From Ceratodon purpureus (taxonomy: Eukaryota > Streptophyta > Bryopsida > Pseudoditrichales > Ditrichaceae), in assembly GCA_014871385.1 (NCBI GenBank), contig CM026423.1:433475-497474 (forward strand): a stretch of 64,000 bases of DNA, read 5' to 3'. Below are positions 20,205 through 40,901 of the stretch, in pieces. The notes below the pieces were generated by a model that worked only from the letters and a program-made list of their open reading frames with translations, made no database searches and had not been told where the DNA came from. The stretch's first letter is position 1, and each line of letters begins with the position of its first letter. The translations under genes were made by a program, and so were the position numbers.

Positions 20205-20724
20205 TCACTTCTTTGTCTTCTTGTGGCTCTCCTGCTCGCGATCCTTCGACCTGGTCACCCGCGGCTCTGATCCGCCCGCCCCTGCTGCTCGTGCCGCCTT
20301 GCGCCTAGCACTCCGTTCCGCCTTTGACTCCCTCTCCTGAGCCTCTAAGGACAACCGGGTAACGATCCGGGGCTTGGGAGAATTGGGCGATTTCGGGATC
20401 ATATGTGCGGGAGGGGTTCCGGACGTCGGAGTCTGAGTTTCAGTTCCGGTGGTCCTGACCGGAGAGCTCCCATGCGTCTCTGAGTCGGACTCGGAAATCG
20501 TAATCGGCTCCTTCCTTTTCCGCAACCTCCGGTAAGCACCGACACTGTTCGGAGGGGAACCCGCTGCTGGCGTTCCGGTGGGAGTAGGCGTCACCGTTCC
20601 GGTCTTGGCTGTGGGTGAAGGGGTCAATCCCCCCTCCTGAGTCACTCGGGTCCGTCCGGGTGGTGAAATAGGTCGTCCCCATTCCGGTCCCGCTACCTCC
20701 CCTCGGTAATTCGCAATGATCACC
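20205..20724 (-). pseudogene. E2 accessory LTR ORF, C-terminal part
   Basis: About 173 residues of a protein whose first part lies at 50084-51759. The two parts are in the same frame when E3 and the duplicated TCACC are taken out, so the ORF was open (about 731 residues) when E3 inserted. This part is Pro/Thr-rich, then highly charged, with a basic end (ERSARRKAARAA; final HKKTKK) like the E1 protein, a possible nuclear localisation signal. Confidence 0.85.
20720..20724 (+). repeat. E3 target-site duplication, left
   Basis: TCACC directly before the E3 LTR (TGTTAAAG). The same five bases follow the right LTR at 50079-50083. Confidence 0.9.
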
Positions 20725-21318
20725 TGTTAAAGGGTGATTAAGCTTCACCCTTAAAAAGCTTGGTTACTTCTACTAAGTCAAATGGAATCTGAAAAAAATG
20801 TAGTACCGGCCTTTCTTCTTGTATTACTACTAATCTGATCCTGCTCATACCAGTAACCTACCCCTGCTCCTGCTCTGATCATCAAGGCAAAGCTTCTTCT
20901 TAACTTCCCCCTAACCCTAACATTAAATGCCCAACTCAGATCTGTAGATTTTATGGTCCTTTACTCATTACTTTCACACCAAGTACAATCCTACTGCTCC
21001 ACAACACTGATCCACAGCAGTATCGTTTCATCCCCCTACCTCCTAACTCCCCTACCTCACTACCATACCTCTGAAACTCTGCGAGAGTGAGAGAGAGTGA
21101 GAGCCGCCATGCTCTCACTCCTCACTACCCCCCAAACCCTAGCCGTCATCCTCCTATGTCCATTTTTCATCCAGTTCAGAATTACATCCGACTGTCAAAA
21201 CTTCATCCAAAACGCAGTGGACAGTAAATGGGCAGTAACTAACTGTTTACTGCTCCTACCTGTTTTTACTGCTCCTAAATTACTGCTCCTAGGTAAAAGG
21301 TAAAAAATCCCTTTAACA
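20725..21318 (-). repeat. E3 3' LTR
   Basis: 594 bases, matching 49485-50078 with about six substitutions. The inner end carries three close copies of TACTGCTCCT (about 21248-21294). The plus-strand ORF at 21097-21303 is repeated in both LTRs but shows no recognisable product. Confidence 0.93.
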
Positions 21319-21331
21319 TTATCCCCCTTTT
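21319..21331 (-). other. E3 polypurine tract
   Basis: In sense AAAAGGGGGATAA, directly before the 3' LTR. Confidence 0.75.
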
Positions 21332-21458
21332 AGTCTGCATCTGCCCTCAGATGCTCTGGTTCCTAGTTTTATGGAGTTAACCAAAAATTAAAAAGGGAAT
21401 AAAAAATTAAAAAGGGAGTCTACTACTGGTCCTACCAGTACTCTACGTATCCTACTAC

Positions 21459-24400
21459 CTAGCCACTAGTTGGTGCGGTCTTCATAATGTCTTGGCCTTG
21501 TTCGCCTGGTGTCATCTCGGGCTCGGAAGCTGCTACTGGCCCGGGTATGGTTGGAGTCGCAACTGGTCCTACTGAGACTGGTGTCAGTACTGGTCCAAGG
21601 GCTGAGGAGGTAGGAAGCAGATCTGTTCCCAACTGTATTGAACCTGGTCCTGGCTCCTCCACTACCGGTGCTGCTGTCCCATTCTGAGTAGACCCCGCTT
21701 GCTGACCACCCTCCTCCTCCACTATTCCCTGTTCTTCATCAGACCAATAGACGAACGTAGGATAGGCCTCTGCAAATCTAACCAAATACCTGTTTTGGCG
21801 CTCCTGATCCTCGTGATAGGCTCTGATTTCTTCCCCCACCTGTTTCTTGGTAGTAGTCAAGATGTGTCGCTGGAGTCCTCGGCTGGCTGGTGTGGCGCTG
21901 CTGTTGGCCACTTCTAGTTGGCGCTTCAGCTCCTGGTTCTCAAGGGCCAGCTGATCGAATCCTCGAAGGCGGGCACTGGTGGCCATCTCCAACTCTATCC
22001 GACGCTTCTTGACTTCCTCCAGTTCTCCTCCTCGGGCTGCTCGTGCGGTCTTCTCCTGCTGTTGTGCTCGAGTGAGGGCAGCTAGCCGTCCTTGGGTGTC
22101 TGCCCATACGGTTTTGAGTGTCGAGAGTTCCAGGGCTGTAGACTGTAAGGTTTCCGCCAACCCCTTGACCTTCCCTTCCAGTTCCTGATTGACAGCCTGC
22201 AACGATTCATACGATGGCTGCCTCTCCTCTTGCTCCTGCTGCTGCTGCCTGATGCTGGTTGTCTTTGCAAGAACCTGCTGCAGTTGTTCCATAACCTGTC
22301 TCAACCCCTCAGCTATCCCATTAGCATCTTCCCCAGTAGACTTAAAAGTCCTTCCAAGATTACGGGGTGTCAATGTCGCTGAGGGTTTGCCCTGCTGCTT
22401 CTTCCGTTTCGTTTCTTCTCTTGGGACCTCCTGCTCCTGTTCCTGTGCTGCCTGCTTGTCTCGGGTAGGTGAAGCTTGCCGGGCCTCCTGCTGTGGTGCT
22501 GCCCGTAACTTCAGTAAGGCCCTAGAGACCTCCACTGGAGTATCTCCTGGCTGTACCTGTTTTGCCGTCTTGGCCTTCTTCCTGCCCCTCGTGACTGGTG
22601 TCCTTCTGTCACCCGAGTTGATTGCTCCTCTCTCCACTTCCTCTGCTTCCTCGGAATCTAAGGATTCTGAGGAGCAGTCCTTGTACTTGGGCCGCTGCTC
22701 CTGCCGCCTTAATCTTTTCTGAGTTGCTCCCTGCCCCCTTGGTGTTTGCTGTTGAGGCTGTTTCCTTTTCCTCTTTCCAGGGGTTATTCTCTGCTGGCCA
22801 GAAGAGGAGGATGACTGGTGTTCGGCCTCGGTTCCTGGTCTACCTGCCTCCTTGGTTACGTTCTGGTCCAAGACCCCCTTGGCTCCTTCTCCACTGATCA
22901 CGTCCGGTGGTAGATCACCTACTGTTCTTACTGGTGTCTGATCTGGCTCACATTCGCTATCGTCCTTTTCTTCCTCGCTGATCTGGGCTGGGGGTGGCTC
23001 CACATACTGCTCCTGGTCTGGGAACCAATTCCTGAGGAGAGCATCGATGAGTTCTGCCCCCTTAATCTCTCTGGTCGGGCTGGTATGTACCCTGATCAGC
23101 ATCCTCCTAAGGCTCGATAATATCAATGGCGCCCAGTTGTGATCTCCTCTCTTTACTGCCTGGTACATGTTCTCTATCAATTCGTTGCTGGCGTACAAGG
23201 ACTTCTTTTTCACGCACATAACCTCCACTAGAGCTTTGACCCTATCCTGATACGGCTCATCAAATCCGCTGATCCTGGTCCCATCTGTTTTGTGGTCGGC
23301 TTTGGTTAACCCGAACATCTTCATGTATTTTGGGTCCAGGTCTCCACTCGCCTTTGGGACCTTAGATGTCTTCCTGCCCTCCATCCCTAAAGCTTGAGCA
23401 ATCGTCCAGGCCGTGATTTCGACTGGTACCCCCCTAACTGTCGCCCTGATGGGTGTTGTGTAGTCGGCCTTCTCCCCACTTTGATACTGGAAGCCTTCTA
23501 CAAAGTCCGACACCAGTTCTGTTCTTGGCACCGGCCAGGAGTATTCGTAGAATTCCCCCAAGCTAACCTGCTCCGCCCAAGTGTCATCCTTCAACTCCCG
23601 CCAGCCCTTCCAGAACTCCATGGGAATGAACGTCAGTTTTATCCTCCTTCTCCTCTTTTTCTCTATGGTCACCATCTTCGGTGCTCGGGCTAGGAGTGGA
23701 GTCGTCTTCCTTCTTGTGCTCCCCCCTACCTTCTGGATTCCTTCCACCTCTGTTCCCGGTTGCTGCTCCTCTTCCTCTGTTTGCTGAGTAGGCGGGGGCG
23801 GTGCATCCTCTCCTTCCTGCTGTTCCTCCATTTGCTCCGGCCCTTCTGCTGCTCCTCTTTTTATGATATAGTCGTGCAAGGTCCCCTTTACCCCTGGTCT
23901 GCTGGCTGTTGCGTCCTCCTTCTGACCAGCGCTAGTACTTGCCATTCGATCCCTTCTTCCTCTTCCTCCTATTTGTTGGACTGTTTCCTCTTGTCTCCAA
24001 TCTCTGAAGGTTAAGACTGACTTCTGCTGCCTATGGACTCGACTGCTCTCTTTTTTTCGCTCTTGGTTCTTCCAAATTTTCTGCCGTCTAACTCCTACTC
24101 TCCTCTCTGTTTTCTTCGGATTTTTCCTCTGATTTTTTCTATGTTCTCTTTGCAAAGCCCTGATTCTTCGCCACTGCTCTATTCTCTCCCTAGCTGAACT
24201 GTTTCTAACTGGAGATTGATCTACTTCTAACTGAAAACCCCCCCAAAAACCCTGAACCTCTAGTGTCACCTGATCGTTTTGGAGTCGTCTTGCTCTTGTC
24301 AAATATCTCCGCTCTCCGCCCTCTTGTGACTGTTCTGCTCTGTAATCTTCGTTGCTCTCCGCCCTTCCTCCGGTTAGGGTTTCTTCTTCAGGCCGGCTCC

Positions 24401-26455
24401 GAAGTTCTGCCCACTGTCTTCGCTGGTCCTCGTCCAATCGCTGCCAATGCTCCTCTGCGACTCGCCTCTGGTTTTCTTCTTCCACTTGATCGCTCCGCTC
24501 GTCTTCGCCCTGTCTTCTTCGTTGCCCTGCTTCAGTTTGTTGTCCTTCTCCTCTTCTCTGCTGCTCGGGTCGCTGCTGCTTCCCGCTCTTCAGCTCTCCC
24601 TGTGGCGCTCCAGCTGTGAGGTGCTGCTCCCGGGTTAGTCTTTGCTGCTCCTCTCGTCTCCGCCGCTGTTCGCCTTCTCCTTGTGCTCGATAGATGAGTT
24701 GCTGCCGTTGAGCTTCCTCGAGCTGTTGCTGCTGCGCCCCTTTGAGCTGCTGTCGCACCTCTCCGAGCTGCTTTTGCCGCGCTCCCTCGAGTTGCTGCTG
24801 CTGCGCTTCCTCGAGCTGCTGCTGCCGCGCTTCCTCGAGCTGCTGCTGCCGCGCTTCCTCGAGCTGCTGCTGCCGCGCTTCCTCGAGCTGCTGCTGCCGC
24901 GCTTCCTCGAGCTGCTGCTGCCGCGCCCCTTCTAGCTGCTGCTGCCGCACTCCTTGTGTTTCTTCACCCCTTCGTCCCGTTCCTCGGTTTAAAACAAAAG
25001 AGTTGAAATGCCTCCTCAGCTCCACCCTATGCTCTCGGGTTTCCGTCCTCATCTCCCTGGTTTCATCCGGGTTGGATGAAATCAGTCGGTTCACTTCTCT
25101 ACGTTGAAACTGAATGGATGAGGGTTTCAGTTCGGATGAATTCCATCCTATTTCTGTCTTAATGGGCCGCCCACTTAACCTACCCTTCGTCTTTATTTCT
25201 ACTGGTACGGCCTCCATTACTCCACAGCCAATTATCTCTAACCCTTCCTTCTCATTTGTTTTTTCTTTTTCTCTTTTTTCTTTAATTTTTTCTTTTTTCT
25301 TATTTTTCTCTTTTCCATTATTTTTTTCAATCACCTTCTCCATGTCTCCTTCTTCTGACTGCTGTCCTTCCTCTTGCTCATTTTTATTTATCTTTTTACT
25401 TTCACATTTTTCCGCACTGTTTCCTTTGCCCCTCTGCTGATTTACTGCTTCACTTTTTCCTTTTTCGCAGCTTTTTTCACTCTCTATCCCTGGATTTTCT
25501 AACCCGGACTGGACACTATCCCCCTTTTGCTCGTTGACCAGTCCTCTGGTCAATTGTGCGGGTGTCCTGGTTTCCACTACTCCTTTGTCATAAAATCGAT
25601 ATGGTTTTAACTTATTAATGTTAACTAAAACCGGGTCCGGTTCGAAATTTTTTACCTGGACCAGTAGAGCAGTATTGTTGGGGAGCCTGTACTGGACCCT
25701 ATAAGGTCCGAACCACCGACTTTTAAATTTCCCCACATGCTCCTTGTTGCCCTTGGGATACCAGAGCACATAATCACCTACTTGAAAATCCTTTCGTTTA
25801 TAGTGTTGCTGGCTCCAAAGTGCCCTGTTCCACTGTTTGGTTCCTACCGCTTCCTGGGCCTCCAGTCTTGAAGTGTCCATCTGCTCCAAATCCGCAATTC
25901 TAGCTGCTAACACCCTGGTTGGTGTATAATCTATCTCGGAATTGGTCCTCTTAGTCGGTACTATGTATTCTGTTGGCATTAACGGATGTAAGCCATATAC
26001 TAGTTGAAAGGGTGTGTGACCTGTAGTAACCTTGTACGCAGTCCTGTAGGAGAGCAGTACAGTATGAAGATGTTCATCCCAATCTGTTCTCCTATCGTTG
26101 ACCAGCTTGCTCAGTAGGTGACCAATCACCTTGTTTGTTGATTCAGCCTGCCCATTACCCTGAGGGTAATAGGTTGTTGATGTGCGATGCTGGAGCAGAA
26201 AATGCTCCACTAGGTGTTCGATAGCCTCATTTATAAAATGAGAACCCTGGTCACTTACCAGTGTCAAAGGACACCCGTATCTTGAAAGGATCTGCTCATA
26301 CAAAAACTTAGCAGTAACTGCTGCTGAATTGGTTTTGAGCGCCCTTGCCTCCACCCACTTGGTAGCATAATCTGTAGCCACCAGTATGTACCTGTTCCCT
26401 GTTCTGGATGCTGTTGGTTTAATGGGCCCAATAAAGTCCAATCCCCATTTCATAA
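21459..26455 (-). pseudogene. E3 integrase core fused to accessory region
   Basis: An open frame of about 1,660 codons behind the frameshift. Order: integrase core (GLDFIGP, VSDQG, E in NGQAEST), the GPYRV-type C-terminal part, a Lys/Glu-rich spacer, about nine QQQLEEAR-like octads (24760-24960), then from MASTSAG (~23943) an accessory region. That region has a globular part ([33 protein letters not shown]) resembling the putative plant transposon protein domain, a charged linker and a coiled coil (about 22250-21880). In E1, E2 and E4 the comparable module is a separate ORF. It is unclear whether the accessory part is cleaved off or translated alone. The upstream frameshift makes the integrase unusable as it stands. 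Confidence 0.82.
24760..24960 (-). repeat. 24-base coding minisatellite (octapeptide repeat)
   Basis: About nine tandem 24-base units encode QQQLEEAR and variants, five of them nearly identical. A charged helical repeat between integrase and accessory domain. The cysteine-rich plus-strand ORF over it is an antisense shadow. Confidence 0.9.
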
Positions 26456-27120
26456 TGGTTCTGCTGGCATACTGGCCACTAATGTAGCTAAACCAGTATT
26501 TGCCATGCCGCCCACTCTCTGGCATCTGTCACACGCCTTGCAGTATTCTGAAACATCCCGATGTATTGCTGGCCACCAGTATCCGGCGTCCAGTATCTTC
26601 CTGCTGGTGATATCTTGCGAAAAATGACCACCTGCTACTCCATTGTGCATCTCCTTCATCACCACCTCTGCCTGCACTGGGTCCAGTACCCGCCTGACCA
26701 CCAGATCATGTCCTCGCTTGTGCAGAACTCCCTGGACCAGTGTATAGGGCAGTGACTTCAGAATCAGCTTCCGCTGCTCCTCTTTGGACAAGTCCTGTCG
26801 TACAACACCAGATTTCAGGTAAGAGCGTACATCCTCTAACCATTCTGGTTTGACATAAAACAAACTTGCATCCTTGGTCTGGTCCTCAACACCAGTTGCT
26901 GGTTCTCCGTTGGGCAGTCTTGACATCGCATCTGCCACACCATGATTTTTCCCTGGCTTATACACCACTGTAAAATCGTATTCTTGAAACAGCAGTAGCC
27001 ACCTTGCTATCCTCCCTGACACCTGTGGCTTATTGACCAGATACACTAGTGCCATATGGTCAACATAGAAAACAAACTTATTGCCCAGTAGATAATGTCT
27101 ATACTTGTTCAGAGCATAAA
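26450..27120 (-). pseudogene. E3 Pol, RNase H end and integrase zinc finger
   Basis: Resumes E3 pol on the far side of E4. From 27115 the frame continues exactly the codon phase that ends at 43302 (RNase H ..ALAMVY / ALNKYRHYLLG..), so E4 did not land in an already broken gene. It holds the end of RNase H and the zinc finger (H..H..CDRC). The frame closes at 26450; the integrase core resumes in another frame. The block suggests loss of one base near 26455, just before KWGLDF. Confidence 0.88.
27116..27120 (+). repeat. E4 target-site duplication, left
   Basis: ATAAA before TGTAATTGG; repeated at 43302-43306 after the right LTR. Confidence 0.9.
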
Positions 27121-28762
27121 TGTAATTGGTAAAATTTACAAATAGTGGTAAGTCATGGGAATAGGTCTTTTCGTTTAGCTTTTAACGTAACTAAAGGTCA
27201 CTGTAGTAAGTAAAGAATGTATAGAATGCAAAGTATTTCCTTAAAAGAATCTCTTTATAACTCTAATGTCTTTAATTACCCCAAGTCACATAAAACCCAA
27301 GTAATCCAAACTCTCAATTGGTTCAAGGGTAATGGGAGTTCAAATTGACAAGTACCATCTCTCGGTTTATTGCCATCACTCCCTTCCAAGTTCAATTAGA
27401 CAATGCATTTATTATGCATATGCAAGTTCATTCATTACTAGGTTAGAATCTAGTGTTCAATCTATTTATGCCTATGAATGATGCTTTGGGATATGTTATG
27501 ATAGATTAACTTATCTCAAGCAACTCCTTGCTTGTCTTCATCTTTTTCCTCCCATCCAACGCATTTCAAATAGACATGTAATCACTGTCGACTCATTCAC
27601 ATTCAATCATACTCCAACTCTACCATTCATCACAACTATACTTCTCAATTGTATTACTCAATTACAATGACTGCCCTATACTCCAATTGAATACATTCAA
27701 GTTTTACTATAATGAGAACTAATAATCACTAAGGCTGATCACTCCTTAATAATTAATGTCACTTTTATCCATCAATGTACTCAATCTGGCTTCCATAAAT
27801 TCTAAGTCATTCTCAGTCTTCTATTTCAGATGGCCAATCTAATTTAAAAGACTATCAAGTAATACTCACTTCACTGTTCCAGTACTCACATGGAACTCTC
27901 ATTCTCCATAATTCACAACAATGCAATTGTCAATTGGACAAACTGTTGTGTTTATTTTCCATAATTTCTATTTGCTATACACTCAGTAACTCTTCCTTCG
28001 TTCTGAGTTCAAATAGACAATCTCACCCACTGTTCACTTCGCTCCATCAATATCTTTGATTTCAAATAGACAGTATCCATTTCAATTAGACAGTATCCAG
28101 TGTGAGTCACCACATTCACTGTAACTCTCACCAACTCTCCACTGAGTCAATTAGACATGGTTCATGCAAGTCAAGTTGACAATGTATGCATGCATATGGA
28201 TGCATACTGAACCACCATCTTGTCCATTTGACCAATGACAACTAGACATTATGCAGCAAGTAATATGAATTCAATTTGTCAATTAGACAGTAATCAGTTT
28301 GCTCCAGTTCTCCATCCTGATTCTACAGTTCTGCAGACTAATACACTATGCATCGAAGCTAAAGTTCAAATTGACAAAGAGCATTGTGAATCAAATATAC
28401 AGTGAGCTACTCAGAGTCGAGTTGACAATCAATTAGACAATGGAATTCTATTTTTATATTTTTTACATAATGTGACTATCACTCACACAGTGTTGTGTGG
28501 TGTGGTGAAGTAATTCTTTCTTCTTCCTTAATTCCTAGTTATGCCTTAATTTCTAAAAGGTGCGCCTGTACGTAGAGTCAATTTGACAAGTCGTGTCTCT
28601 AGGTAGGGTCATGTCCCCTGAATTCTACACTATTGTCCATTTGACTCTCAACCAGATTTCTACAGCCACTATCTACATGGATTTCAAATTGACATGGTAA
28701 CTTGGTCCTATTTACACTGTTTTTGCTGAAAAGGGACTTTTCTCAAAAAAAGTCAGCTCACA
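27121..28762 (-). repeat. E4 3' LTR
   Basis: 1,642 bases, TG..CA ends, nearly identical to 41660-43301. It contains about 18 copies of a near-palindrome of the form (G/T)TCAANTWGAC(A), for example 28577-28587. No ORF of note. Confidence 0.95.
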
Positions 28763-28777
28763 TAGCCCCCCTCTTTG
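28763..28777 (-). other. E4 polypurine tract
   Basis: In sense CAAAGAGGGGGGCTA, directly before the 3' LTR. Confidence 0.75.
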
Positions 28778-28894
28778 TCTACTTGACTCCCGGCAAGTTT
28801 CACATTTACAGCATTGTCTACTAGACACTATGTCAACTAGACTCAAAAATTATATACAAAGATTAGCTTGCACACACCCTGCAGCTACTGTCTA

Positions 28895-31800
28895 CTAGAC
28901 ATTATGACGTCGGTGGTGATTACGGTGCTGGTCACCGTAATGGCTCTCCTTCTGGATCCGCTGTGCCATGAGCTTAGACACTTCCCTCCTTACTTCATCA
29001 TCCTTCCGAAGTAATTCAGTGTTATTGGAATGCTGGAAGGTTAGCCAGTTGTCAATGGCTATCTTCCGAGTTCCCCTGAATTCGTTGATGAAGCATCCAT
29101 TAGACCCGTAAAGAAAATGAGTCATGGCCATGACTTCCAGCATCCTCCCCCAACGACTTGAGTGGTAACGGAGCTTGAGATTGATCAAAAACTCCGGCCT
29201 CCTCTCATCGTAGCGGTTCACATTCACCACCACCTTGAAATCCCTGCAAATCCGAGCCAAAAACTTGGAGAAGATTGCTGCTCGGAAACACACAGGGTCG
29301 GTGTGTGTGTGGTGAATCTGCCAGAAGCCCTCATAGGCCGTGGCACAATTCCATGCCGTGTCAAATTGACCAGGGATCAGTGGCCAATTATACTCCACCG
29401 AGTCAATTAGACTATCTGGAGCCCACTTGAATCTTCTTCTACAGTCGCAGAAATGTCCATTTGTCCTCACAGCCTCAGGAGCCGCATCGGTCCAATTGAC
29501 ATTTACTATCTCCTTGTAGATCAAATCCCATGACCGCTCCTCCCTTCGAGACAGTCCGTAATCCTCCAGCAGCCACTCAATCGCAGTCCACGTGGGTAGC
29601 GGAAAAACCGCTTCATTGTCAAATAGACTCGCATAATTCCCCAAGTACTTGACTGTCAAGGGGGAGCCTGTAACCGGTGTTCGAATAGACAGCCACCCCG
29701 GTGCCTTGTATGTGGGTGGAGGCAAGGTCAACTCGACTTGAAGATCATGGCTAGTGATGAATAGGTGATCCTTCTTCAACTCCCTCAAAGTGTCCATGAT
29801 CTGCTGCCTGACCTTGTGCATCCCGTAGACATAGTGTGCTGTGGTCAACTCGCCTCTTTGAGCATAAGTCTCCCTCTCCAGCACACATGACAACTTGACA
29901 AGGATGTTATCACGGTCATCGAACTCCTTGAGCAGCCCCTCCAAAGTTGCTGTCCACTCCTTGAGCTCCTCACTTGGCACCTTCTCCGCAACATCCACCA
30001 CCTGTCTACTCGAATCGCCCATCTTCACCAGTCTGTGACTCTCCACCGACATGTCAAGTTGACGTCTCTTCTGTAGCTGCTCTTCCAGAGTGGTGTAGTA
30101 TAACACCACTCTTGCTCCCAAGTGTCCTATTGGAAGGAACAACTTCTTGTGGTCGGTCAATTGGACATCGCCTCTTACTATCATCTCACAGATGAGATTC
30201 TGCTGATTAGCATGTCTACTAGATGCTGCCCATACCGCATCGAAATCACCGCTGTCCAATAGACATCCCCTGTCTTTCCCCACCATAGCCAACCAGTTAT
30301 CCCTTTGCAATTCGTATGCATGGAAAAGGGAATAACTTGGTGGTGATGTCAAGTCGACCTTCCAAAGTTCTCCTCTCAACGCCCTGTTCTCCATCCGGGC
30401 CTCCTGCAACTGCTTCTTACCAATCTCGATAGTACGGTGGTACAATTCGTTATTGGACTTCAGAGTCGCACAATCCGAGGGGTTGACAACCTTCACCATC
30501 GGATTTTTCTTCAAGCTTTCCAACTCTGCCTTGAGCTTATTCTTCTCATTCCTCTCCTCGGTGCAGAGCTTGGAAATGGCAATCTTGGCATCATTCACTT
30601 GGTCAAATTGACGTTGAAGTTCGATGCGGTGCTGCTTCTCATCGTTATACAGTTCTTGGAACGACTTCCCAGTGTCGATCTCAATGTCTGCAACGGTAGG
30701 CTTGGTCAATTCCTCATTCAATTCCGCCAAGTTAGCCAACTGTGTATTGAGCCTTCGTATATCTTCCACAGCTAGGTTGTTCTCAGTGGTCAAGTTGAAC
30801 ACCGTACGCTCCAGTTCTTTGATCTTCAACCGTAGCTGTGTTTCTCTCACCAGTGCATCCTTGAGCTGTGCAGCCACCTCAGTCTGCGTGAGCTGCAACG
30901 CTGGTTGCCTTGCAGGTTCACGGTTGTCCACTTGACTGGTTGATCTTGCTCCTCTTCCCAACCTCGGGTTCAGTTCAAATAGACATTGAGGTAAGGAGTC
31001 ATCCACCCTCCTCTTCTTTACTTTGTTGGCCCTCGAGGATGATGGAGTCGAAGCTCTCGGCTCTGGATCCCTTGTCAAATTGAGCAAGTCTGGAAGCACT
31101 CTCACCGGTCCAGTTGACACACCTGAATCCACTTGACTTGATGGCTTGGTCAGCTCTGAGAGGTAAATCGCACTGTAGAGTGTGATGGGATATCTAGTAT
31201 GCTTCTTGCTAATCTCCACCTTGATGTTGTCAAATAGAATGTTTCCCCAACTCAATTTGATACCATTCCACCCGTAAATCGCGGCTGCTACTCCTTCCTT
31301 CGACATGATCAGCGGCCCCTTCTCCGCCAGCATAATTCTCTGATTGAAGAATAACAACCACTCCTTCCACGTCTCTTTCGCATTCGCCAACTTGTAGCCA
31401 CTCTGTGTCTTGGCAGCTCTGTCAAAGACGTTGGCTAAATCTTCCTCGGAGATTCCTCCCACTTCCTCCGTTAACAACCTGTCCCCTTGGTGCAGCTTCA
31501 GCATCTTGGAAATTGTGGTCGAGTTGAAAGGTACGCTTCTTCCATCCACCACAGCTATTCCTCTTGAGCCATACTCCGAAGAAGTCAGGAATTGATTAAT
31601 CCTCCCATCATCCTGCTCCTCGAAGACAACCATTACGAAGTCCCAAAGTCCTGCCTTCACAAAGTTTTCCCGGTTGGCTTCAAACTGCGGCCATGCCTCT
31701 CGGTCAATCTTCTTCAATTCCAAGTGTTCAATTTGACGTCTTGGTCCACTTGACAGGTCCTGTTGCATTGCCTCCGCAAGCACAGGCTTCTTGGACTTCT

Positions 31801-31930
31801 TGTTCTTCATTGCTTTCACCTTGGGCCGAGCAATTGGCCTTGTCAATTTGACGGATCCTGCAACTTCGGGTTGGGGCCTCCCTTGATCAGTTCCTCTGCC
31901 TTCTCTGTCAACTTGACCTTCGTTTACCAT
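28895..31930 (-). CDS. E4 accessory protein (aORF) 3' of pol
   Basis: 1,011 residues from ATG at 31930, intact. The N-terminal 250 residues form a globular part (ending LSWGNILFDNIKVEI..RYPITLYSAIYLSELT; also GRSVPFNSTTISKML) with the same pattern as the E3 accessory domain and, more weakly, the E1/E2 LTR proteins. Residues about 280-330 are Ser/Arg/Pro-rich; about 345-510 are coiled coil; the C-terminal ~450 residues form a second folded region I do not recognise. A basic N-terminus (PKVKAMKNKKSKKP) could be a nuclear signal. The position 3' of pol recalls the env-like/ORF2 slot of Athila and the extra ORFs of Tat elements, but I see no signal peptide or clear membrane segment. The coding sequence itself contains many GTCWANTWGAC motifs. 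Confidence 0.82.
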   Translation of the reverse strand: MVNEGQVDREGRGTDQGRPQPEVAGSVKLTRPIARPKVKAMKNKKSKKPVLAEAMQQDLSSGPRRQIEHLELKKIDREAWPQFEANRENFVKAGLWDFVMVVFEEQDDGRINQFLTSSEYGSRGIAVVDGRSVPFNSTTISKMLKLHQGDRLLTEEVGGISEEDLANVFDRAAKTQSGYKLANAKETWKEWLLFFNQRIMLAEKGPLIMSKEGVAAAIYGWNGIKLSWGNILFDNIKVEISKKHTRYPITLYSAIYLSELTKPSSQVDSGVSTGPVRVLPDLLNLTRDPEPRASTPSSSRANKVKKRRVDDSLPQCLFELNPRLGRGARSTSQVDNREPARQPALQLTQTEVAAQLKDALVRETQLRLKIKELERTVFNLTTENNLAVEDIRRLNTQLANLAELNEELTKPTVADIEIDTGKSFQELYNDEKQHRIELQRQFDQVNDAKIAISKLCTEERNEKNKLKAELESLKKNPMVKVVNPSDCATLKSNNELYHRTIEIGKKQLQEARMENRALRGELWKVDLTSPPSYSLFHAYELQRDNWLAMVGKDRGCLLDSGDFDAVWAASSRHANQQNLICEMIVRGDVQLTDHKKLFLPIGHLGARVVLYYTTLEEQLQKRRQLDMSVESHRLVKMGDSSRQVVDVAEKVPSEELKEWTATLEGLLKEFDDRDNILVKLSCVLERETYAQRGELTTAHYVYGMHKVRQQIMDTLRELKKDHLFITSHDLQVELTLPPPTYKAPGWLSIRTPVTGSPLTVKYLGNYASLFDNEAVFPLPTWTAIEWLLEDYGLSRREERSWDLIYKEIVNVNWTDAAPEAVRTNGHFCDCRRRFKWAPDSLIDSVEYNWPLIPGQFDTAWNCATAYEGFWQIHHTHTDPVCFRAAIFSKFLARICRDFKVVVNVNRYDERRPEFLINLKLRYHSSRWGRMLEVMAMTHFLYGSNGCFINEFRGTRKIAIDNWLTFQHSNNTELLRKDDEVRREVSKLMAQRIQKESHYGDQHRNHHRRHNV

Positions 31931-33568
31931 GGTTCCTTCTTTCTGTCTATTAGACTACACACTCGGCAGTTAGTTTGCTTCAGTTTTTACTTCGTCTAAT
32001 TGAAATTTTTCTCGGCATTGACTCTCCCTGAAACTCTCGGTACTGTCTACTTGAACTCTCGGGAATTTTATCTTTGTTATTTCCTTACTTTTAAAACTAT
32101 AAAACACTTCTTCCACTCGGCAATCACTTCTATCCCTAATTTTCTACTTCACAATCATCTAAGCATACATTCCATTGAAAATATTAAGCTTCATTCTTTC
32201 TGTTCTTCTCCTCCCTTTCTCTCGGCAATCAGTTTGTAATATTTTCCTACATTACTATCATCATACATACATCACAGCACCATGTTTCAGTTTCGTTCCT
32301 TGTTTCTTACACTTTCTTTCTCTCGGCAAGTTGTGTTTTGTGATTCCTTCATCCTTGTCTACTGGACAGTCTCCATTCTTCACAAGTAACAGTTCAATTG
32401 GACATGCAAGAAGAAGATGCGAAGACAACATGCATTCGACTTGACACAACAGAATGGATGCAATGAAACTCACCCGCAATGTGTCAACTTGACTATGAGA
32501 GATATGCCTCTCAAGATGCAATGCTTCGTCTTCCCCTTCTGTCGCACTGTTTCCAATTGACACTCACAATGATCAGAAACTCTGGGTCCAGTTAACCTAA
32601 GGTATCATATCAACTTACTTCTAACATCGAGATCATCGCAACACTTCTTTCAACAACATCGTGTTTACTTAACCTAAGATATCTGCAACTGTCCAAAGCT
32701 AATCAGATTGTCCAATTGACAAAACAGTATGCGAAATCAACAACAACACAACTCACCTCCTGATATGCAAACTGAAACGCACTTCGCTCCCCCTTCAATC
32801 GCTCAATCTTCTCGCACACACCCGCTGTAATTAATTGTAGCAAAGTATAGTAATGTAGTCCTCCCGTTCACTCCTTCCTTTTTCTCGGGTCACTCAGTAT
32901 CCCTCACACATCAGTTACTCAAATTGTGACCCTCAACTGAACTGCTTTTTCTCTCGATCCTCTCGGTATCTCACTCTATCTCAGTTCTGATCTCCTCCCA
33001 ATGCTAACCATGTGTCTACTTGACAACAATCTCTCTCCACTCCTAACCCTGATCGCTCACAATGTAGCGCTCCGTCTACTTGACCTCCGTTTCCTCACTC
33101 CCTCGCACTCTGTGTTTCTCAAGAATGCGTGTTGTTTGAGGTTTCCTGTTTCAGTTTTGGAGGAGATGATGTTGTCTATTCGACTCGACCATTCCCCTTT
33201 GTCTATTTGACAGTTAGTGGGATCTTGGCACTCATTTCCATGCAACGTGGTCATCATGATCACAGCCCCCAATTCATGTTATCATATCAGCCGTCTTTCC
33301 ACTCACTAATTGTATTTTCTGATCATTACTACTTACTCATCATTTTAATTAGTGTCTACTTGTCAATTAGTAATTTCCATTTGCTTCAAAAATTCTCAAG
33401 TTCAGAATTTAAATTTGTTGAACTTGTTCTTTGTAAACTCAGTTTTTTAGATCGCTGGTTTTTTAATTTCCTCAAAATTTCACAGTTTCTAGTACTTAAG
33501 TAGGACAGTTTTAAAATTTTTGAATTTTTATATACTTACTGCCCCCCTCTTAAATCTAGAACTTGTCC
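31931..33568 (-). other. E4 spacer between pol and aORF
   Basis: About 1.6 kb without a supportable ORF. It is dense in the E4 motif (exact at 31945-31955, 33014-33024 and 33201-33211, plus many near matches). It may hold the promoter or splice acceptor for the accessory ORF; none can be assigned by eye. Confidence 0.6.
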
Positions 33569-36500
33569 TCAAGTTATATATGGTTTCAAACGAAAACCAT
33601 TATATCTTGTGGCATGAATTTTTCCTGCAAAATCTTGAAGTTCAACTGAACCATTGGGATACGATTTTAATACCCGGTATGGTCCAAACCAACGCATTCT
33701 AAATTTTCCTGGAAATTTTTGAAATCGGCTATCATATAATAATACTAAATCATTAGGATTCAAAACTTTGGGTTCCAATTTGCTATCATAATATGTTTTA
33801 CGATGTTTTTGAATAGCTTCATTATTAAGATACGCTTGGGCTCTTGTTTCATCTAATTTTTTGAGCATATAAAGCCTATGTCTTAAAGATTCTTCATCTC
33901 CTAATCGTTCATCTAATGCAATTCTTAAAGACGGGAGTTCCATTTCAATTGGTAAGATAGCTTCTTGACCGTAAACTAATTGAAATGGAGTAAATTTTGT
34001 AGATACTTTAAATGCACATCGATAAGCCCATAATGCATCTGGTACTCTTGCGTCCCAATCTGTATTTGAACCCTGTACAGTTTTAGTAATTATCCGGCAT
34101 AATATGCCGTTTGTTTTTTCTGTCTGACCATTAGCACGGGGGTGATACGGTGTAGATTTTCTATGTTTAATTGAATATTTTTCAGTTAGTTGTTCAATTA
34201 TTTCATTAAGAAAATGAGTTCCCCGATCACTTACTAATTCTTTTGGACATCCAAATCTTGTAATGATATTTTCATATAAAAATTTGGCAACAGTTTTAGC
34301 ATCATCGGTTTTCGTAGGTTGAGCTTCTGCCCATTTAGTTACATATTCAGTTGCAATTAATATGTATCTATTTCGACCATGTCGACTAGGTGGTTTAATA
34401 GGTCCTACAAAATCAATTCCCCATTTCTCAAACGGCGTTTGAGCTAAAATTGGATTTAAAGGCATTGCCTTTGAAGGTGTAGGTTTTCCCACTCTTTGGC
34501 ATGGATCACATTTTTTGGTATATCTATGTGCATCCCCAAAGAGTGTTGGCCACCAATATCCGGATTGTAACGCTTTATGTGCAGTTACCATTCCGGCAAA
34601 ATGACCGCCACATGCAGCGTCATGACAACCTTTAAGAATTAATGGTACCTCACTTGGATTAATACATCTCCGTAAAAGTCCGTCTTTACCCCTTTTATAT
34701 AGAACTTTTGCAATTAATGTATATGGTTGAGATTTAAATATTAATTTTTGTTTTTGTTTATCTGTATAATCTTGAGGGAAGGTATTGGTACTCAAGTAAT
34801 GAATAACATCAGCATATTCTGCTGGAATGATATCCACTTGAAAAATATGCGCATCTGGAAAACTATCATCTATGGATTCTGGATTCACTTCCTTACTAAT
34901 CCGTGATAAGAAATCAGCATTGGCATGTTTTTTGCCAGGCCTTACATTAACCGTAAAATCAAATTCTTGAAGTAACAATACCCATCTAGCTATTCTCCCA
35001 CTCAATTGTGGTTTATTAACCATATATTTAAGTGCATCATGATCTACATGAAAAGTGAACTTATAACCTAATAAATAATGTCTATATTTTTGGACCGAAT
35101 ATATCATTCCTAATCCTTCTCTCTCCGTTACAGAGTAATTTTTCTCAGCAGCACTTAATTGTCTACTAGAAAAATATATAGGTCGATCATGACCTTTTGC
35201 GTCTTTTTGACTGAGAACACTTCCAATAGCATAATTTGATGCATCTACATAAACTTCAAACGGTTTCTCCCAATCTGGTGGTATTAGAATGGGAGCATTA
35301 CTAAGCCGTTTTTTAAGTTTATTAAATGCTTTTGTGCACTCTTCTGTCCAAACACCAGGAGTATCGGTTTGTTTTGTTAGATGTGTTAAAGGAGCTGCCA
35401 CTTTTGCATAAAAGTAGATAAATCTTCTATAATATCCAGAAGCTCCTAAAAACCCTTTAAGTTCTGTCATATGTTTAGGTATTTCTAATTTTTTGATAGC
35501 AGCTACTTTATCTGGATCAACACCTATACCTTCTTTTGAAACTATATGACCCACTAATCGTCCACAAGGTACAGCGAATTCAGACTTGGCTGCGTTTATT
35601 GAAAGACCATATTTTTCACATTGTTCGAAACATTTCTTTAAACATTTCTGGTGTTCAGTTTTAGGACTAAAGACACAAAAATCATCTAAGAAAATTTCAA
35701 TAAATTTTCTTAAATATTCCTGAAAAGCTGTTGTCATTGCTCTTTGGAAAGTAGCTGGTGCATTGCACAATCCAAAGGGCATGACATTATAAGCAAAGGT
35801 TCCCCAATCAGTTGTAAAAGTTGTTAGAGGTTTATCTTCCGGGGCGATTTGTACTTGATTATAACCAGAAAATCCATCTAAAAAAGAATAACATTCATGT
35901 CCTGCTACACCATCAAGGATTGCATCCGTGAAGGGTAAAGGAAAATAATCTTTTTTAGTGACACTATTTAATTTCCTGAAATCCTGACAAATCCTTAACT
36001 TCCCGTTCTTCTTAGGCACCACAACAATTGGAGATACCCACTGACTATAAGGTACTGGATATATAAAATAACATTCTAGTAGTTTATCTATTTCCTCTTT
36101 AACCATGAGAGAATATTTTGGGTTCATACGATATTGTCTTTGTCTTACCGGTTTTGTATTAGGTTCTAAAATAATTCTATGTTGACAGACTTCTGGAGGT
36201 ATTCCTTTAAGGTCTTTATAAGTCCATGCAAATGCATCTTTACATTCTTTAAAGAATTTAAACCATTGTTCATATTCATTTGGATTTAGTCCTTCATAAA
36301 TTCTTATGTTTTTGGGTTCCTCTGAAGTTCCCAAATTCATATCAATGCAAGTGCTTTTAACAGTACTTATATTACTACCTTTTATGTGAGACATGTTTTC
36401 CATTAATTCTTCAGAATCGCTCAAATATTGAGGTTCTAATTCCGACTCAATTTCGGCGGTTACATTAAGTACTGGCAAATTTTCCCATGCTAGAATAGCA

Positions 36501-39500
36501 TCATCTGAATCTACTTCGTTATTCAGAAAGGAATATTCTCCAGTCCCTAGACATCTAAACTCAGGCATTTTCTCCTGTTCTACTACTTTAGTACTTTCGC
36601 TATTTGAATCATATGAGGCTTCAGAAGTGACATCTGTGTCTTCTTCTTGAGTCTCACCATGATATTTAACTGGAAACATTGGTAATACAACCCGTTTCCC
36701 TTTTGCTTTTATAGTTAATGTTCCCTTTCCCCAATCATCTTTAGCTCTAGCAGATTTAAGCCACGGACGACCTAGTAATATTGGGTATGTTGATATGGAT
36801 TCACTCACTTTAAAGATTATATAATTAATCTTAAAGTTAAGTCCTCCTATAGTTGTAACTATTCCTCTCAAAATACCTAATGGTACTACTCGACTTTGAT
36901 CTGCCATTCTTAAGATAATAGGAGTGGAAGTCATATGAGTTAATCCTAGTTCTTCCATAGTGTCAACATTCATTAAGTTGACACTAGAACCACTATCTAC
37001 TTGGACTCCTTCAATTAGAGAACCATCTATGATTACATCCACAGTAGGTGCTCCAGGGTCCAAGGATATATCATGCACATCTACGATTTTACTCCTTTTC
37101 CTAACCAACGAAGAACTTAGTTCACCTCTACATTTAGGTGCTATTGCTAACAATTGCCTCAAAGATATGTCAGGTTGGATTTTATCCATATTTGTTAAGA
37201 TATCATATGGATTCATTCCCTCTGACAATTTCATTGTACGATTATACTTCCTTTTCTTAGGAATAGTTGGTGTTTCTTTTAGTTTCTTTTTAGGTGGTCT
37301 ATAAAACGTAGGTAATGAATTTGAAGTACTAGGCAAGTTAGCAAAATCATTTAGTAAATCTTGAGGTAATATTGTAGGTTCTTCAACTGGTTGCTTACCC
37401 TTATCCTTCTCTTTCGGTTCTTCTATAGGTATTGTTTTCTCACTATTTATAGGAATGTTTGGAGGTATTAAGGGAAATATTGGTTTAGATTTTATAACAT
37501 CCTTCTCCTTAACTACTTTTGAAGGTGTGTTATTTTTTCTCACTCTACTACTTCTATAGTCACTATCAGAGCTGCTATGTTGATCACTTTCAACCATAGC
37601 TTTTTTGGCTTGTGCACGTGTTATATAAACTTCCTGAGGTTTATCTCTCTCATATTGTGTTATTTGATTTACATTCCTTGAGTTTTCAATTTCACTAAAT
37701 TGAACACTCTTCACAGGTGCTGGAGCTGTACAATTATTTGCTATATGACCACTTTGTTTACACCTCCCACATAAAGGATTATACCCAATTTGTTTCTTTG
37801 GATTTGGACAATCTCTCGCCATATGTCCTAATTCCTGACAGTTATAACACACTAAGTGTTTTCCTTTCTCAGGAGTTCCATATCTATGGGTATTAGGATT
37901 AGTAGGCGGTCCATTCCACACAGGTGCGGCATTATAAGTATCATTCCACCTTGGTCTCCCATCCCCAGGTCTATAGGGTGGTCCTACATTTGGTCTAGTA
38001 AACGGACGTTTTGAAGTTACACTATAAGGTGCTTTGTTATTATTTGTTCCGTTTGCCTGCAAATTCGAACTCACTGCAGCTACTACTTTCCCCAAATTCC
38101 AACATTTAGATACGTCATGAGGTCCTCCACAAAAACTACATTTAGGTTTATTACTAAATTCCCCACCTATCGGAGTAGAACACTCATTGGAAAGATGTCC
38201 ATGTCCATTACAATTAGTGCACCACATATTGGTACGCATGTTTGTAGGTTTTGAACGTTTATCTTTCCCATGAGTTATTTGTACCGATAGTTCATTTAAT
38301 TTTTTCTCTAATTTAGTAATGTTGTTCATTAATATATCATCTGTAGGGGCTTTGATTGCTAAAGGTTGAGGATTCATGACTGTGGGATTTGAAGGATAAG
38401 TCGAAACTGGTAGTTGTGATCTAGCTGGAGGTAAATAAGGATAATGATCACGGCCATAAGCATCCATGCCTTGAGCATGATCATAACCTTCTCTCCTAGG
38501 TGGATATACTTCTGCATATTGTGCAAAATCAGTATTTACTCTAGCCTCTTCCCAAGTTTTAGCTTGTGTATAAGCACTAGCAATGTCTTGGGGGTTTCGT
38601 TCCTTTAAGTAAATTCTTAACTCATCAGGCCAAACCCCTCCTACAAAGGTACATGCTAATACTTGATCAGTTAACCCATGATTTGTCCATCTCTTTAGAA
38701 GAGCATTAAATCTTGTATAATAGGAATCTATACCCTCATTTATACCCATTCTTATAGTTCGAAATCTATCGATTAACCCTGGTATAAATGATCTAGGTCG
38801 AAACCTATCAAGAAAAGCTCTCCTTAAATCTTCCCATCTTGTGGGTACGGTTAACAATTGGACATACCATTCATGAGCATCATCAAGCAATGTGCTTGGA
38901 AAAGTGCTTAGATATAAATGTTCAGGTAACTGATTTGCTTGTGCAACCACTCTAAATCTTTCCAAATGTCTATCGGGGTCAGACCCTGGATATCCATGGT
39001 ACATAGGATATGGTGCTATGTTTAAAATCCTTTGTTGTGCCATGATATTAGGTGGTAAAGTCTGTGGTGGAGGTGGTAGTGGTGGTGGGGGTGGTGGAGG
39101 TCTAGGATGAGGAGTTGGAGGTCTGGGAGGAGGTCGTGAAGGAGGTGAAGAAGAAGGTCTTAACAATTCTTCTTCACTTGTTTCTCTCCTTGTATCACTA
39201 CTCTCACTACTACTACTCCCAGAGGAATCTCCTGATGAAAATCTCCAACAATTTATCCCTTCCCAATCCTCATTACTTTCATCATTAGATGGTTCATAAG
39301 GGTTGGTAAAAGGTTGTATAGTTGGAAATGTTTCTGGAAGAGATGCCTCATAAGCTACTTCCTCATCATTCCACTCTTTTCTATTGTCTTCTAATGAAAT
39401 TTCCCTTATGTATGTTTCAATAGGGGTTGTGGTTTCTACGTCAGTAATATCTGCAATATCATTAACCCAACTCTCTATACTTGTAACAAAGGTTTGTACG

Positions 39501-40048
39501 GCTTCGTCGAGATAAGGTTTTGGTGTTTCAAAATTAGTTTGGGTTGGTGTTGAGAATTCAGGTAGGTTAGAGGGTTCTCCAACCTCTGTGGTAAATGGAT
39601 TCTTCAAAGAACTCTCAAATTCTGAGGAAGAAGGTGTGACTAATTCTTCTACCTTCTTTCCCTTTTCAGAATTAATTTGAAGTGGGTGTACTTCACTTGA
39701 AGATCCCCAGGTTAACCTCCTAAATGGTGGTGAGTGACAACATAAATAATGCGATCTTCTCAAACCTTCCTCCGGTAATTCTAAATCCTCATTCTTTAGA
39801 GAACTTTGGTGTTGTTCTTCTATAGAAAGTGGATTTTTTTTTTTTGTATCACTAACTTGGCTAGTTGAGGTATTAAGATTTGAGGGAATAGTTTCTTCTT
39901 TAAGTACTGGGGATGGTGTTGAATTATAAACGGGATTGGCAGATACTAATGTTAAGATCTGCTTTTCTTTCCTTTCAATCCGTTTTTTCAAACGTTCATT
40001 TCTTGCAATATTTTGTTTATCTCTCAATTCTTTATCCTTCTCAGACAT
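33569..40048 (-). CDS. gag-pol: E4 Gag-Pol polyprotein
   Basis: 2,159 residues, one intact ORF. Residues about 1-330: acidic and Pro-rich; Gag domain about 335-455 (LDDAHEWYVQLL); four zinc knuckles near 608 (CTNCNGHGH), 636, 733 and 757; protease VDSGSSVNLM near 1019 and LLGRPWL; RT with FLDD near 1454; RNase H about 1580-1700 (VYVDASNYAIG); integrase zinc finger (H..H..CDPC) near 1790-1840; core with D in IDFVGP (~1877), D in VSDRG (~1938) and E in NGQTEKTNG (~1974). Unlike E1-E3 there is no stop between gag and pol, so Gag to Pol stoichiometry must be set another way. The E4 motif is essentially absent here. Confidence 0.95.
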   Translation of the reverse strand: MSEKDKELRDKQNIARNERLKKRIERKEKQILTLVSANPVYNSTPSPVLKEETIPSNLNTSTSQVSDTKKKNPLSIEEQHQSSLKNEDLELPEEGLRRSHYLCCHSPPFRRLTWGSSSEVHPLQINSEKGKKVEELVTPSSSEFESSLKNPFTTEVGEPSNLPEFSTPTQTNFETPKPYLDEAVQTFVTSIESWVNDIADITDVETTTPIETYIREISLEDNRKEWNDEEVAYEASLPETFPTIQPFTNPYEPSNDESNEDWEGINCWRFSSGDSSGSSSSESSDTRRETSEEELLRPSSSPPSRPPPRPPTPHPRPPPPPPPLPPPPQTLPPNIMAQQRILNIAPYPMYHGYPGSDPDRHLERFRVVAQANQLPEHLYLSTFPSTLLDDAHEWYVQLLTVPTRWEDLRRAFLDRFRPRSFIPGLIDRFRTIRMGINEGIDSYYTRFNALLKRWTNHGLTDQVLACTFVGGVWPDELRIYLKERNPQDIASAYTQAKTWEEARVNTDFAQYAEVYPPRREGYDHAQGMDAYGRDHYPYLPPARSQLPVSTYPSNPTVMNPQPLAIKAPTDDILMNNITKLEKKLNELSVQITHGKDKRSKPTNMRTNMWCTNCNGHGHLSNECSTPIGGEFSNKPKCSFCGGPHDVSKCWNLGKVVAAVSSNLQANGTNNNKAPYSVTSKRPFTRPNVGPPYRPGDGRPRWNDTYNAAPVWNGPPTNPNTHRYGTPEKGKHLVCYNCQELGHMARDCPNPKKQIGYNPLCGRCKQSGHIANNCTAPAPVKSVQFSEIENSRNVNQITQYERDKPQEVYITRAQAKKAMVESDQHSSSDSDYRSSRVRKNNTPSKVVKEKDVIKSKPIFPLIPPNIPINSEKTIPIEEPKEKDKGKQPVEEPTILPQDLLNDFANLPSTSNSLPTFYRPPKKKLKETPTIPKKRKYNRTMKLSEGMNPYDILTNMDKIQPDISLRQLLAIAPKCRGELSSSLVRKRSKIVDVHDISLDPGAPTVDVIIDGSLIEGVQVDSGSSVNLMNVDTMEELGLTHMTSTPIILRMADQSRVVPLGILRGIVTTIGGLNFKINYIIFKVSESISTYPILLGRPWLKSARAKDDWGKGTLTIKAKGKRVVLPMFPVKYHGETQEEDTDVTSEASYDSNSESTKVVEQEKMPEFRCLGTGEYSFLNNEVDSDDAILAWENLPVLNVTAEIESELEPQYLSDSEELMENMSHIKGSNISTVKSTCIDMNLGTSEEPKNIRIYEGLNPNEYEQWFKFFKECKDAFAWTYKDLKGIPPEVCQHRIILEPNTKPVRQRQYRMNPKYSLMVKEEIDKLLECYFIYPVPYSQWVSPIVVVPKKNGKLRICQDFRKLNSVTKKDYFPLPFTDAILDGVAGHECYSFLDGFSGYNQVQIAPEDKPLTTFTTDWGTFAYNVMPFGLCNAPATFQRAMTTAFQEYLRKFIEIFLDDFCVFSPKTEHQKCLKKCFEQCEKYGLSINAAKSEFAVPCGRLVGHIVSKEGIGVDPDKVAAIKKLEIPKHMTELKGFLGASGYYRRFIYFYAKVAAPLTHLTKQTDTPGVWTEECTKAFNKLKKRLSNAPILIPPDWEKPFEVYVDASNYAIGSVLSQKDAKGHDRPIYFSSRQLSAAEKNYSVTEREGLGMIYSVQKYRHYLLGYKFTFHVDHDALKYMVNKPQLSGRIARWVLLLQEFDFTVNVRPGKKHANADFLSRISKEVNPESIDDSFPDAHIFQVDIIPAEYADVIHYLSTNTFPQDYTDKQKQKLIFKSQPYTLIAKVLYKRGKDGLLRRCINPSEVPLILKGCHDAACGGHFAGMVTAHKALQSGYWWPTLFGDAHRYTKKCDPCQRVGKPTPSKAMPLNPILAQTPFEKWGIDFVGPIKPPSRHGRNRYILIATEYVTKWAEAQPTKTDDAKTVAKFLYENIITRFGCPKELVSDRGTHFLNEIIEQLTEKYSIKHRKSTPYHPRANGQTEKTNGILCRIITKTVQGSNTDWDARVPDALWAYRCAFKVSTKFTPFQLVYGQEAILPIEMELPSLRIALDERLGDEESLRHRLYMLKKLDETRAQAYLNNEAIQKHRKTYYDSKLEPKVLNPNDLVLLYDSRFQKFPGKFRMRWFGPYRVLKSYPNGSVELQDFAGKIHATRYNGFRLKPYIT

Positions 40049-40336
40049 TGATAAATGCCATTTAGGCTTTAAGCATTGAAGCTTAGACCTAAATGATTTT
40101 CTATCCCCAATTTTTCTTAAAGAAAAATGATCACTTATTTCACTCTACCTATTTCTTTTAACTATTACTTCCCTACTTCTCTTAAGAAAGTTTTTTATGA
40201 TTCTCCCAACCTTGTTTTGTTTTACAGGTGCTCTGAATTGTCTATAGTAGTTTTTTCGCCCAAGTTTGGCTAATTCCCTTAATCGTTCCTCCTCTAATTT
40301 TACCATTTTCTTTATTCCATTCAATTAGAATAAAGA

Positions 40337-40636
40337 CTAACTCTTATTGGTATCAAACCAAGATATTATCCAAGTATTCAAGGTGAAAGGTTCTACTTCA
40401 AATATCTCATCAACCTCTTCTTCTTGAAAATTCCTAGGATAATTATGTTCACTAATCAACCTTTCTATTAAAAAGTTCTGTTCAGAATTTGATTCACCTT
40501 CCTTGCTAATTTGATCTATCTCTTTAGCTAAAAGGTGAATCAATGCTTCTTCATTTCTTTGTATACCCTCATAAATTATCAACAATCGTCTTAATCTGAC
40601 TAATTGTTCGATAATTGTTTCACTCTTGATTGTCAT
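40337..40636 (-). CDS. Small ORF in E4 leader (99 aa)
   Basis: Begins ATG at 40636. Acidic, Leu/Ile-rich, probably helical. It lies between the primer site and gag-pol. I do not recognise it. It could be an upstream regulatory ORF or chance. Confidence 0.35.
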   Translation of the reverse strand: MTIKSETIIEQLVRLRRLLIIYEGIQRNEEALIHLLAKEIDQISKEGESNSEQNFLIERLISEHNYPRNFQEEEVDEIFEVEPFTLNTWIISWFDTNKS

Positions 40637-40639
40637 GTC

Positions 40640-40897: not shown

Positions 40898-40901
40898 AGC
40901 A

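Follow-up and report, generated by a model that had tools for sequence, protein, structure and literature searches.

A dispersed palindromic DNA word under purifying selection in a Ty3/gypsy retrotransposon of Ceratodon purpureus, and the element's accessory protein as its candidate reader

Introduction

Foamy virus Tas (Bel1), like comparable transactivators of retroviruses, is an element-encoded, DNA-binding activator of its own long terminal repeat (LTR) and internal promoter. In Arabidopsis VANDAL elements, the short motif of the transposon-encoded anti-silencing proteins VANC21 and VANC6 is dense in the protein's own element and rare elsewhere (PMC5735166). Related VANDAL elements use differing motifs, which are mainly noncoding, lie in the same orientation and often form tandem repeats, and VANC carries the domains DUF1985 and DUF287 (PMC5735166). 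Plant Ty3/gypsy elements of the OTA group are described in a survey as carrying extra open reading frames (eORFs) with a plant mobile domain or Transposase_28, and the survey questions whether eORFs have any function (PMC6317226, section 13). MAIN and MAIL1, plant mobile domain proteins derived from transposable elements, have been tied to a DNA motif and to transposon silencing; they are host genes, and promoters of genes whose expression is lost in the mutants are enriched for the motif, named DOWN (PMC7156037). The present analysis concerns E4, a Ty3/gypsy retrotransposon in a stretch of 64,000 nucleotides of Ceratodon purpureus (assembly GCA_014871385.1, contig CM026423.1, positions 433,475 to 497,474 of the forward strand; hereafter the window), which carries a dispersed palindromic word, GTCNANTNGAC, and, in the same 3' part, an accessory open reading frame (ORF).

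E4 resembles the VANC systems in the density and specificity of its motif, which within the window is concentrated in E4 and scarce outside it. It departs from them in protein domains, transposon class, repeat origin and coding location. VANDAL elements are DNA transposons (Mutator-like elements), while E4 is an LTR retrotransposon with a target-site duplication, gag, reverse transcriptase, RNase H and integrase. Its sites are dispersed palindromes that occupy coding DNA too and lack repeat structure, and its protein matched neither DUF1985 nor DUF287 in Pfam scans. Like the OTA eORFs described, the E4 ORF lies on the sense strand, 3' of the integrase, and has an N-terminus of plant-transposon type (Transposase_32, a weak likeness); beyond them, it shares its part of the element with a DNA motif under selection and has a conserved C-terminal domain without a Pfam match. 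A link to a DNA motif, putative for the E4 protein, is also the point of comparison with MAIN and MAIL1. Foamy virus Tas is an unrelated protein and, as generally understood, has far fewer sites.

A palindromic word in the LTRs and 3' part of E4

The sequence-only reading of the window had reported at least two dozen exact copies of GTCWANTWGAC in E4, a pattern that it expected about once per 260 kb. The expectation is about 262 kb at even base composition, the window holds 24 copies, all 24 within E4, and the eight positions offered as examples (28577, 28816, 28832, 28890, 31907, 31945, 33014 and 33201) are all occupied. The palindrome was correctly recognised, but its consensus was too narrow: any base is accepted at positions 4 and 8, with A/T preferred (A37 C11 T18 G4 among 70 half-sites), hence the better motif is GTCNANTNGAC. 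In this form, 27121-33568 contains 35 perfect sites, a number that rises to 67 when one core mismatch is allowed. The central base is free (18/17/17/18), G1 to T is the core change tolerated most often (21 of 32), and sites often have T before and A after them. An unguided count of dyads over the same interval is headed by pieces of GTCNANTNGAC (CAA-N3-GAC 61 versus 5.3, GTC-N5-GAC 35 versus 1.5), and a gapped-word scan gave CAA.T.GAC 58 versus 1.2.

This enrichment is hundreds-fold relative to dinucleotide shuffles, so that motif density lies far above that of shuffled controls. Per motif-bearing region, 0.00-0.04 perfect sites are expected from 200 shuffles of each region, in which the LTR ends were three bases short; the observed counts are given in Table 1. 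They omit the perfect site at 28890, which overlaps the end of the accessory ORF and straddles two regions. The range first proposed, 27121 to 33400, is indeed dense in sites, but the 5' LTR, beyond it, carries them as well. Each LTR has 17 relaxed sites, close to the 18 or so first estimated. The essential absence of the motif from gag-pol and leader was also borne out, with no perfect site in either (0.07 and 0.01 expected) and one relaxed site in gag-pol (0.60 expected). Outside E4, the 27.1 kb and 20.7 kb that make up the rest of the window have no perfect site (0.52 and 0.34 expected). Control arrangements of the half-sites (spacer of 0 or 2, direct, everted, reversed word) are absent from the motif-bearing regions, save for one everted arrangement in the accessory ORF. 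Across the genome searched (362.5 Mb in 151 contigs, one of 110.5 Mb), the exact word has 2836 matches versus 1033 for the reversed word; among the first 50 distinct places listed, all in the first 3 Mb of C1, six are isolated and the others clustered.

The motif and the accessory ORF share one 3' part of the element, and 15 of the 35 perfect sites fall inside the ORF. The flanks of the sites are unrelated, and flank identities between sites look random. Together with the free centre, this is the pattern that protein contacts would produce, and repeat expansion would not. The spacing of sites has no clear helical phasing (resultant 0.11-0.14). The asymmetric variant CAANTNGAC occurs equally in both orientations in the ORF segment (14:14), which makes a sense-RNA code unlikely despite the skew of asymmetric variants in the LTR (5:15) and spacer (8:2).

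Selection on the word across E4 copies

The accessory ORF contains 15 sites versus 0.9 in 300 synonymous shuffles, and the word is therefore not forced by the protein sequence. The sites are spread across the three frames (5, 8 and 2). At least 46 genomic matches to the accessory protein were found, at about 45 loci, and E4 copies were examined at 35 loci: 30 from the protein search, the window's own among them, and five chosen for divergence. Perfect sites number 33-39 in 33 of these 35 loci, 25 in L039 and 17 in L035, whereas none of the 35 has the mirrored control word. The motif is thus kept among divergent copies, as judged from 35 of about 45 loci. A perfect site occurs in at least one copy in 43 alignment columns; in 36 of them it is found in at least 30 of the 35 sequences, and in three in one sequence only, which indicates that the sites are mostly old and have been retained in place.

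Variation was counted by column in 33 sequences including the window, the two most decayed copies (L035 and L039) being omitted and sites with one end mismatch included; a shared variant is one present in three or more copies. Noncoding core columns have shared variants in 2/244 cases versus 441/2557 for other columns (P=2e-16), fourfold-degenerate core columns in 0/27 versus 107/378, and other third-position core columns in 2/39 versus 144/568. The core is not depleted at codon positions 1-2 (3/135 versus 66/1889), on which the protein imposes a constraint of its own. Variation at the degenerate positions within sites matches that of the surrounding DNA in the LTR (4/51 versus 58/865) and at fourfold sites (3/11 versus 86/300), but falls below it in the spacer (5/45 versus 286/1080). 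Among perfect sites only, 3/58 noncoding degenerate columns are shared-variable, where the local rate is about 14%. Consequently, the degenerate positions appear to be partly constrained.

The depletion persists under stricter nulls. For perfect sites, matching for base, region and CpG gives one noncoding column observed versus 25.7 (minimum 12) and none in the ORF versus 13.9 (minimum 3), and a local null of +-40 bp gives 1 versus 22.4 in noncoding DNA and 0 versus 10.6 at third positions. Results are similar when sites are taken from L020 or L036, or when the decayed copies are kept. Rare variants in the noncoding core are mildly depleted (36/244 versus 561/2557, P=0.009), which suggests selection on the transposing lineage followed by near-neutral decay of single insertions. 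Intact sites are likewise in excess in single copies: 15 of 31 alignable sites versus 2.3 expected in L035, which has 72% identity outside the core, 22 of 31 versus 6.1 in L039, and 32 of 35 versus 15.8 in L036.

The DNA word is under purifying selection, at synonymous sites too and independently of reading frame. Selection on either DNA or RNA binding had been proposed at the outset; the variant footprint and the synonymous shuffles uphold the DNA part of that proposal, while the sense-RNA part fares poorly for the reason of orientation given above.

The accessory protein and the element that carries it

The accessory protein is itself under purifying selection. Shared variants affect 69/2024 columns at codon positions 1-2 versus 107/405 fourfold sites, and 30 of 46 genomic matches are free of stops over 1010 or more of the 1011 residues. 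Its N-terminal region, at about residues 125-248, has a weak likeness to Transposase_32 (PF20167; 13 bits, cut-off 45, E 0.095), which recurs at E<=1 in 7 of 25 family members scanned, with a best value of 2.9e-5. Pfam scans at E<=1 returned Transposase_32 alone, with DUF1985 and DUF287 absent, in searches whose HMMER filters discard most matches above about 0.1. When a family profile was compared with the PDB, many of the 60 listed matches were coiled-coil proteins that align with the middle of the protein, which can be read as a putative coiled coil and could dimerise. The C-terminal domain (about 515-1011, encoded by 28898-30388) is conserved: the C-terminal half as a query finds 53 proteins at 32-98% identity, many on short contigs, and H873, H876, D878, F882 and R883 are among the residues invariant over 25 aligned family sequences. 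None of the 25 members scanned has a Pfam match above cut-off in this domain. A structural model of it is fairly confident (mean predicted local distance difference test score, pLDDT, 83) and matched no solved PDB fold well, which argues neither for a new fold nor for DNA binding.

E4 is a young Ty3/gypsy LTR retrotransposon. Its LTRs are 1642 bp each and differ at a single position (28522) over 1639 bases compared. It has the gag, protease, reverse transcriptase, RNase H and integrase order, the LTRs and the 5-bp target-site duplication of a Ty3/gypsy element with a 3' extra ORF. Pfam assigns to gag-pol a gag region, three CCHC stretches (zinc knuckles), reverse transcriptase, RNase H and integrase, along with a protease-like region whose matches fall under the cut-off; a second RNase H (aRH), the marker of the Tat clade, is not among these matches. 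In the leader, TGGCGCCGCTGCCGGGG adjoins the 5' LTR, and is presumably a primer-binding site of tRNA-Asp type. The parts of E4 form a composition mosaic (GC 49% in the accessory ORF, 36% in gag-pol, 35% in the LTR and 31% in the leader), and perhaps the 3' module was captured. Judging from repeats and ORFs, E4 appears to be nested in E3, and E3 in E2, with E1 beside them.

Table 1. Features of the window, with sites of GTCNANTNGAC where counted
Feature	Position	Strand	Remarks
E1	1-12788		Ty3; 3.4-kb LTRs
E1 accessory ORF	9922-11730	+	inside LTR
E2	12789-20700 and 50035-53000		related to E1 (64% in pol)
E2 accessory ORF	50035-51759	-	
E3	20725-27115 and 43307-49800		Ty3
Target-site duplication, left copy	27116-27120		ATAAA, read directly; same as 43302-43306
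E4	27121-43301	-	Ty3/gypsy LTR retrotransposon
E4 3' LTR	27121-28762	-	8 perfect and 17 relaxed sites
E4 polypurine tract	about 28763-28777	-	
E4 short 3' segment, including polypurine tract	28763-28894	-	3 perfect sites, at 28777, 28816 and 28832
E4 accessory ORF (3' extra ORF)	28895-31930	-	1011 residues; 15 perfect sites
E4 spacer, gag-pol to accessory ORF	31931-33568	-	8 perfect sites
E4 gag-pol	33569-40048	-	2159 residues; 0 perfect sites
E4 leader and primer-binding site	40049-41659	-	0 sites
E4 5' LTR	41660-43301	-	8 perfect sites
Target-site duplication, right copy	43302-43306		ATAAA

Words in the neighbouring elements

CCGG and CCGGWWG abound in E1, namely in its gag, its pol, the LTR and the LTR ORF, and its CCGGWWG counts exceed those of synonymous shuffles in pol (38 versus 10), gag (16 versus 4.4) and the LTR ORF (15 versus 3.5). 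In the four ORFs of E2 it is YCGGAW that is in excess (61 versus 20.6, 19 versus 7.7, 34 versus 11 and 29 versus 12.1), and CCGGWWG does not go beyond synonymous shuffles there. Matrix scans of the E1 and E2 words gave 128 versus 11-17 and 156 versus 16-24 in Markov sequences, with orientations of 45:33 for CCGGWWG in E1 and 81:68 for YCGGAW in the main E2 piece. These words were chosen from the same data in which they were tested, and their significance is therefore inflated. E1 is also enriched for YCGGAW (58 versus 30.6, 21 versus 10.6 and 22 versus 10.1), so the two words overlap, which limits their reading as separate addresses. Moreover, the longer word CCGGAAG favours the sense strand (24:9 in E1 and 15:1 in the main piece of E2), which tells against reading the words as purely double-stranded. 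For positions of CCGG shared between E1 and E2, one comparison out of four exceeded all synonymous shuffles (17 versus a mean of 9.3 and a maximum of 16), and for CCGGWWG none of the four did. An apparent E1 footprint (13 variable core columns versus 38 expected) proved to be an artefact of non-homologous flanks; within the LTR only, it is 3 versus 3.9 with sites from L040, and alike with L045 and L048, the copies being too young.

The accessory ORFs of E1 and E2 are 97-100% and 96-100% identical among 73 and 76 listed genomic matches, respectively, mostly stop-free. That of E2 probably lies inside its LTR, since the listed matches are often paired about 9.7 kb apart. The two proteins are 33% identical over 209 residues at their N-termini, and neither has significant blastp similarity to the E4 protein. 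That they accompany words other than that of E4 is suggestive only, hinting at family-specific codes.

The words of E3 are weaker. AGGASCAG exceeds every synonymous shuffle in two of three ORFs (gag and the integrase/accessory ORF), as does ASCAGT (pol and the integrase/accessory ORF). The strong sense bias of AGGASCAG (26:2) excludes E3 from the DNA-motif claim, and an RNA, protein or DNA cause is possible. The fused integrase/accessory ORF of E3 also contains 24-bp tandem repeats (24698-24985) that encode a Q/E-rich stretch. Elsewhere in the window, 52284-52625 consists of two tandem 171-bp units that are 98% identical.

Candidate readers of the word

Five-base half-sites arranged as a palindrome around a free centre point to a protein that acts as a dimer on double-stranded DNA, and the word may accordingly be seen as a dispersed array of sites for a dimeric, sequence-specific DNA-binding protein. 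The accessory protein of E4 is the natural candidate, since its ORF and the sites occupy one part of the element, it has mostly stop-free copies and is under purifying selection. Its two subunits, joined through the coiled coil, would each contact one TNGAC half-site across the one-base spacer. Bound in this way, the protein would coat the LTRs and 3' part of E4 copies as a self-recognition factor, and might activate or de-silence them in trans, as VANC does. Binding, coiled-coil dimerisation and anti-silencing or activation are all inferred, and the reading as a whole, in which E4's own protein is the most likely reader, binds the palindrome as a dimer and serves self-recognition or de-silencing, is given an even chance.

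Several points weigh against it. The VANC parallel drawn at the outset stands for density and element specificity, but fails for protein domains, tandem-repeat origin and restriction to noncoding DNA. The remainder are those that favour other readers. The regulatory regions of LTRs normally rely on host factors, and the palindrome resembles an ordinary dimeric site. The array could therefore be bound by a transcription factor or chromatin protein of the host that recognises palindromic GTCNANTNGAC, E4 having gathered the sites for cell-specific expression or to recruit that factor. This is unlikely, if still the best of the alternatives: the rest of the window has no perfect site despite three other Ty3 elements, E1 and E2 are enriched for different words, and the array extends into coding DNA and into a spacer distant from the LTR.

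WRKY factors in particular fit poorly, and this rival, raised by the sequence-only reading, is weakened. The W-box consensus TTGACY requires C or T after GAC. In E4, TTGAC accounts for only 37 of 70 half-sites, with TA/TG/TCGAC making up the other 33, and GAC is followed by A in 40 of 70, so that a W-box array can be rejected. The sites of bZIP proteins and auxin response factors are a poor fit in half-site polarity and in the invariant A5/T7.

A family-specific motif might also serve a role outside transcription and silencing, such as recognition by integrase or Gag of the element's own DNA or RNA, copy counting or nuclear positioning. The words of E1 and E2 extend through gag-pol, where a whole-element role is conceivable. 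For E4, such a role is improbable, given that its gag-pol and leader are without the motif and that its asymmetric variants occur in both orientations. More improbable still is an operator, bound by a host repressor and kept because E4 needs low, regulated activity. A dispersed operator array would also yield purifying selection, but selection could hardly go on keeping 35 perfect sites so that the host can repress a parasite. Chance, composition, codon usage or tandem-repeat spread has a negligible probability, as the dinucleotide and synonymous shuffles exclude the first three as the origin of the motif, the unrelated flanks exclude tandem duplication of sites, and the variant footprint contradicts them too.

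Implications

The presence of a sharply defined, selected word beside an eORF opens a direct assay, namely whether the accessory protein binds it (GTCAANTTGAC probes). If it does, LTR retrotransposons would join the systems with sequence-specific self-recognition like that of VANC, through a protein without VANC domains, and the different words of the neighbouring families would point to a coevolving code. Under this broader proposal, several Ty3 families would each carry their own DNA address (E4 GTCNANTNGAC, E1 CCGGWWG and E2 YCGGAW), written down to synonymous codons and read by the cognate extra-ORF protein, with motif and protein pairs coevolving as a self/non-self code. The proposal is tentative, and at present doubtful. 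If confirmed, each family would have an address of its own, and the related E1 and E2 would have related yet different ones, like the VANC motifs. If true, such an address code would provide a general function for plant eORFs.

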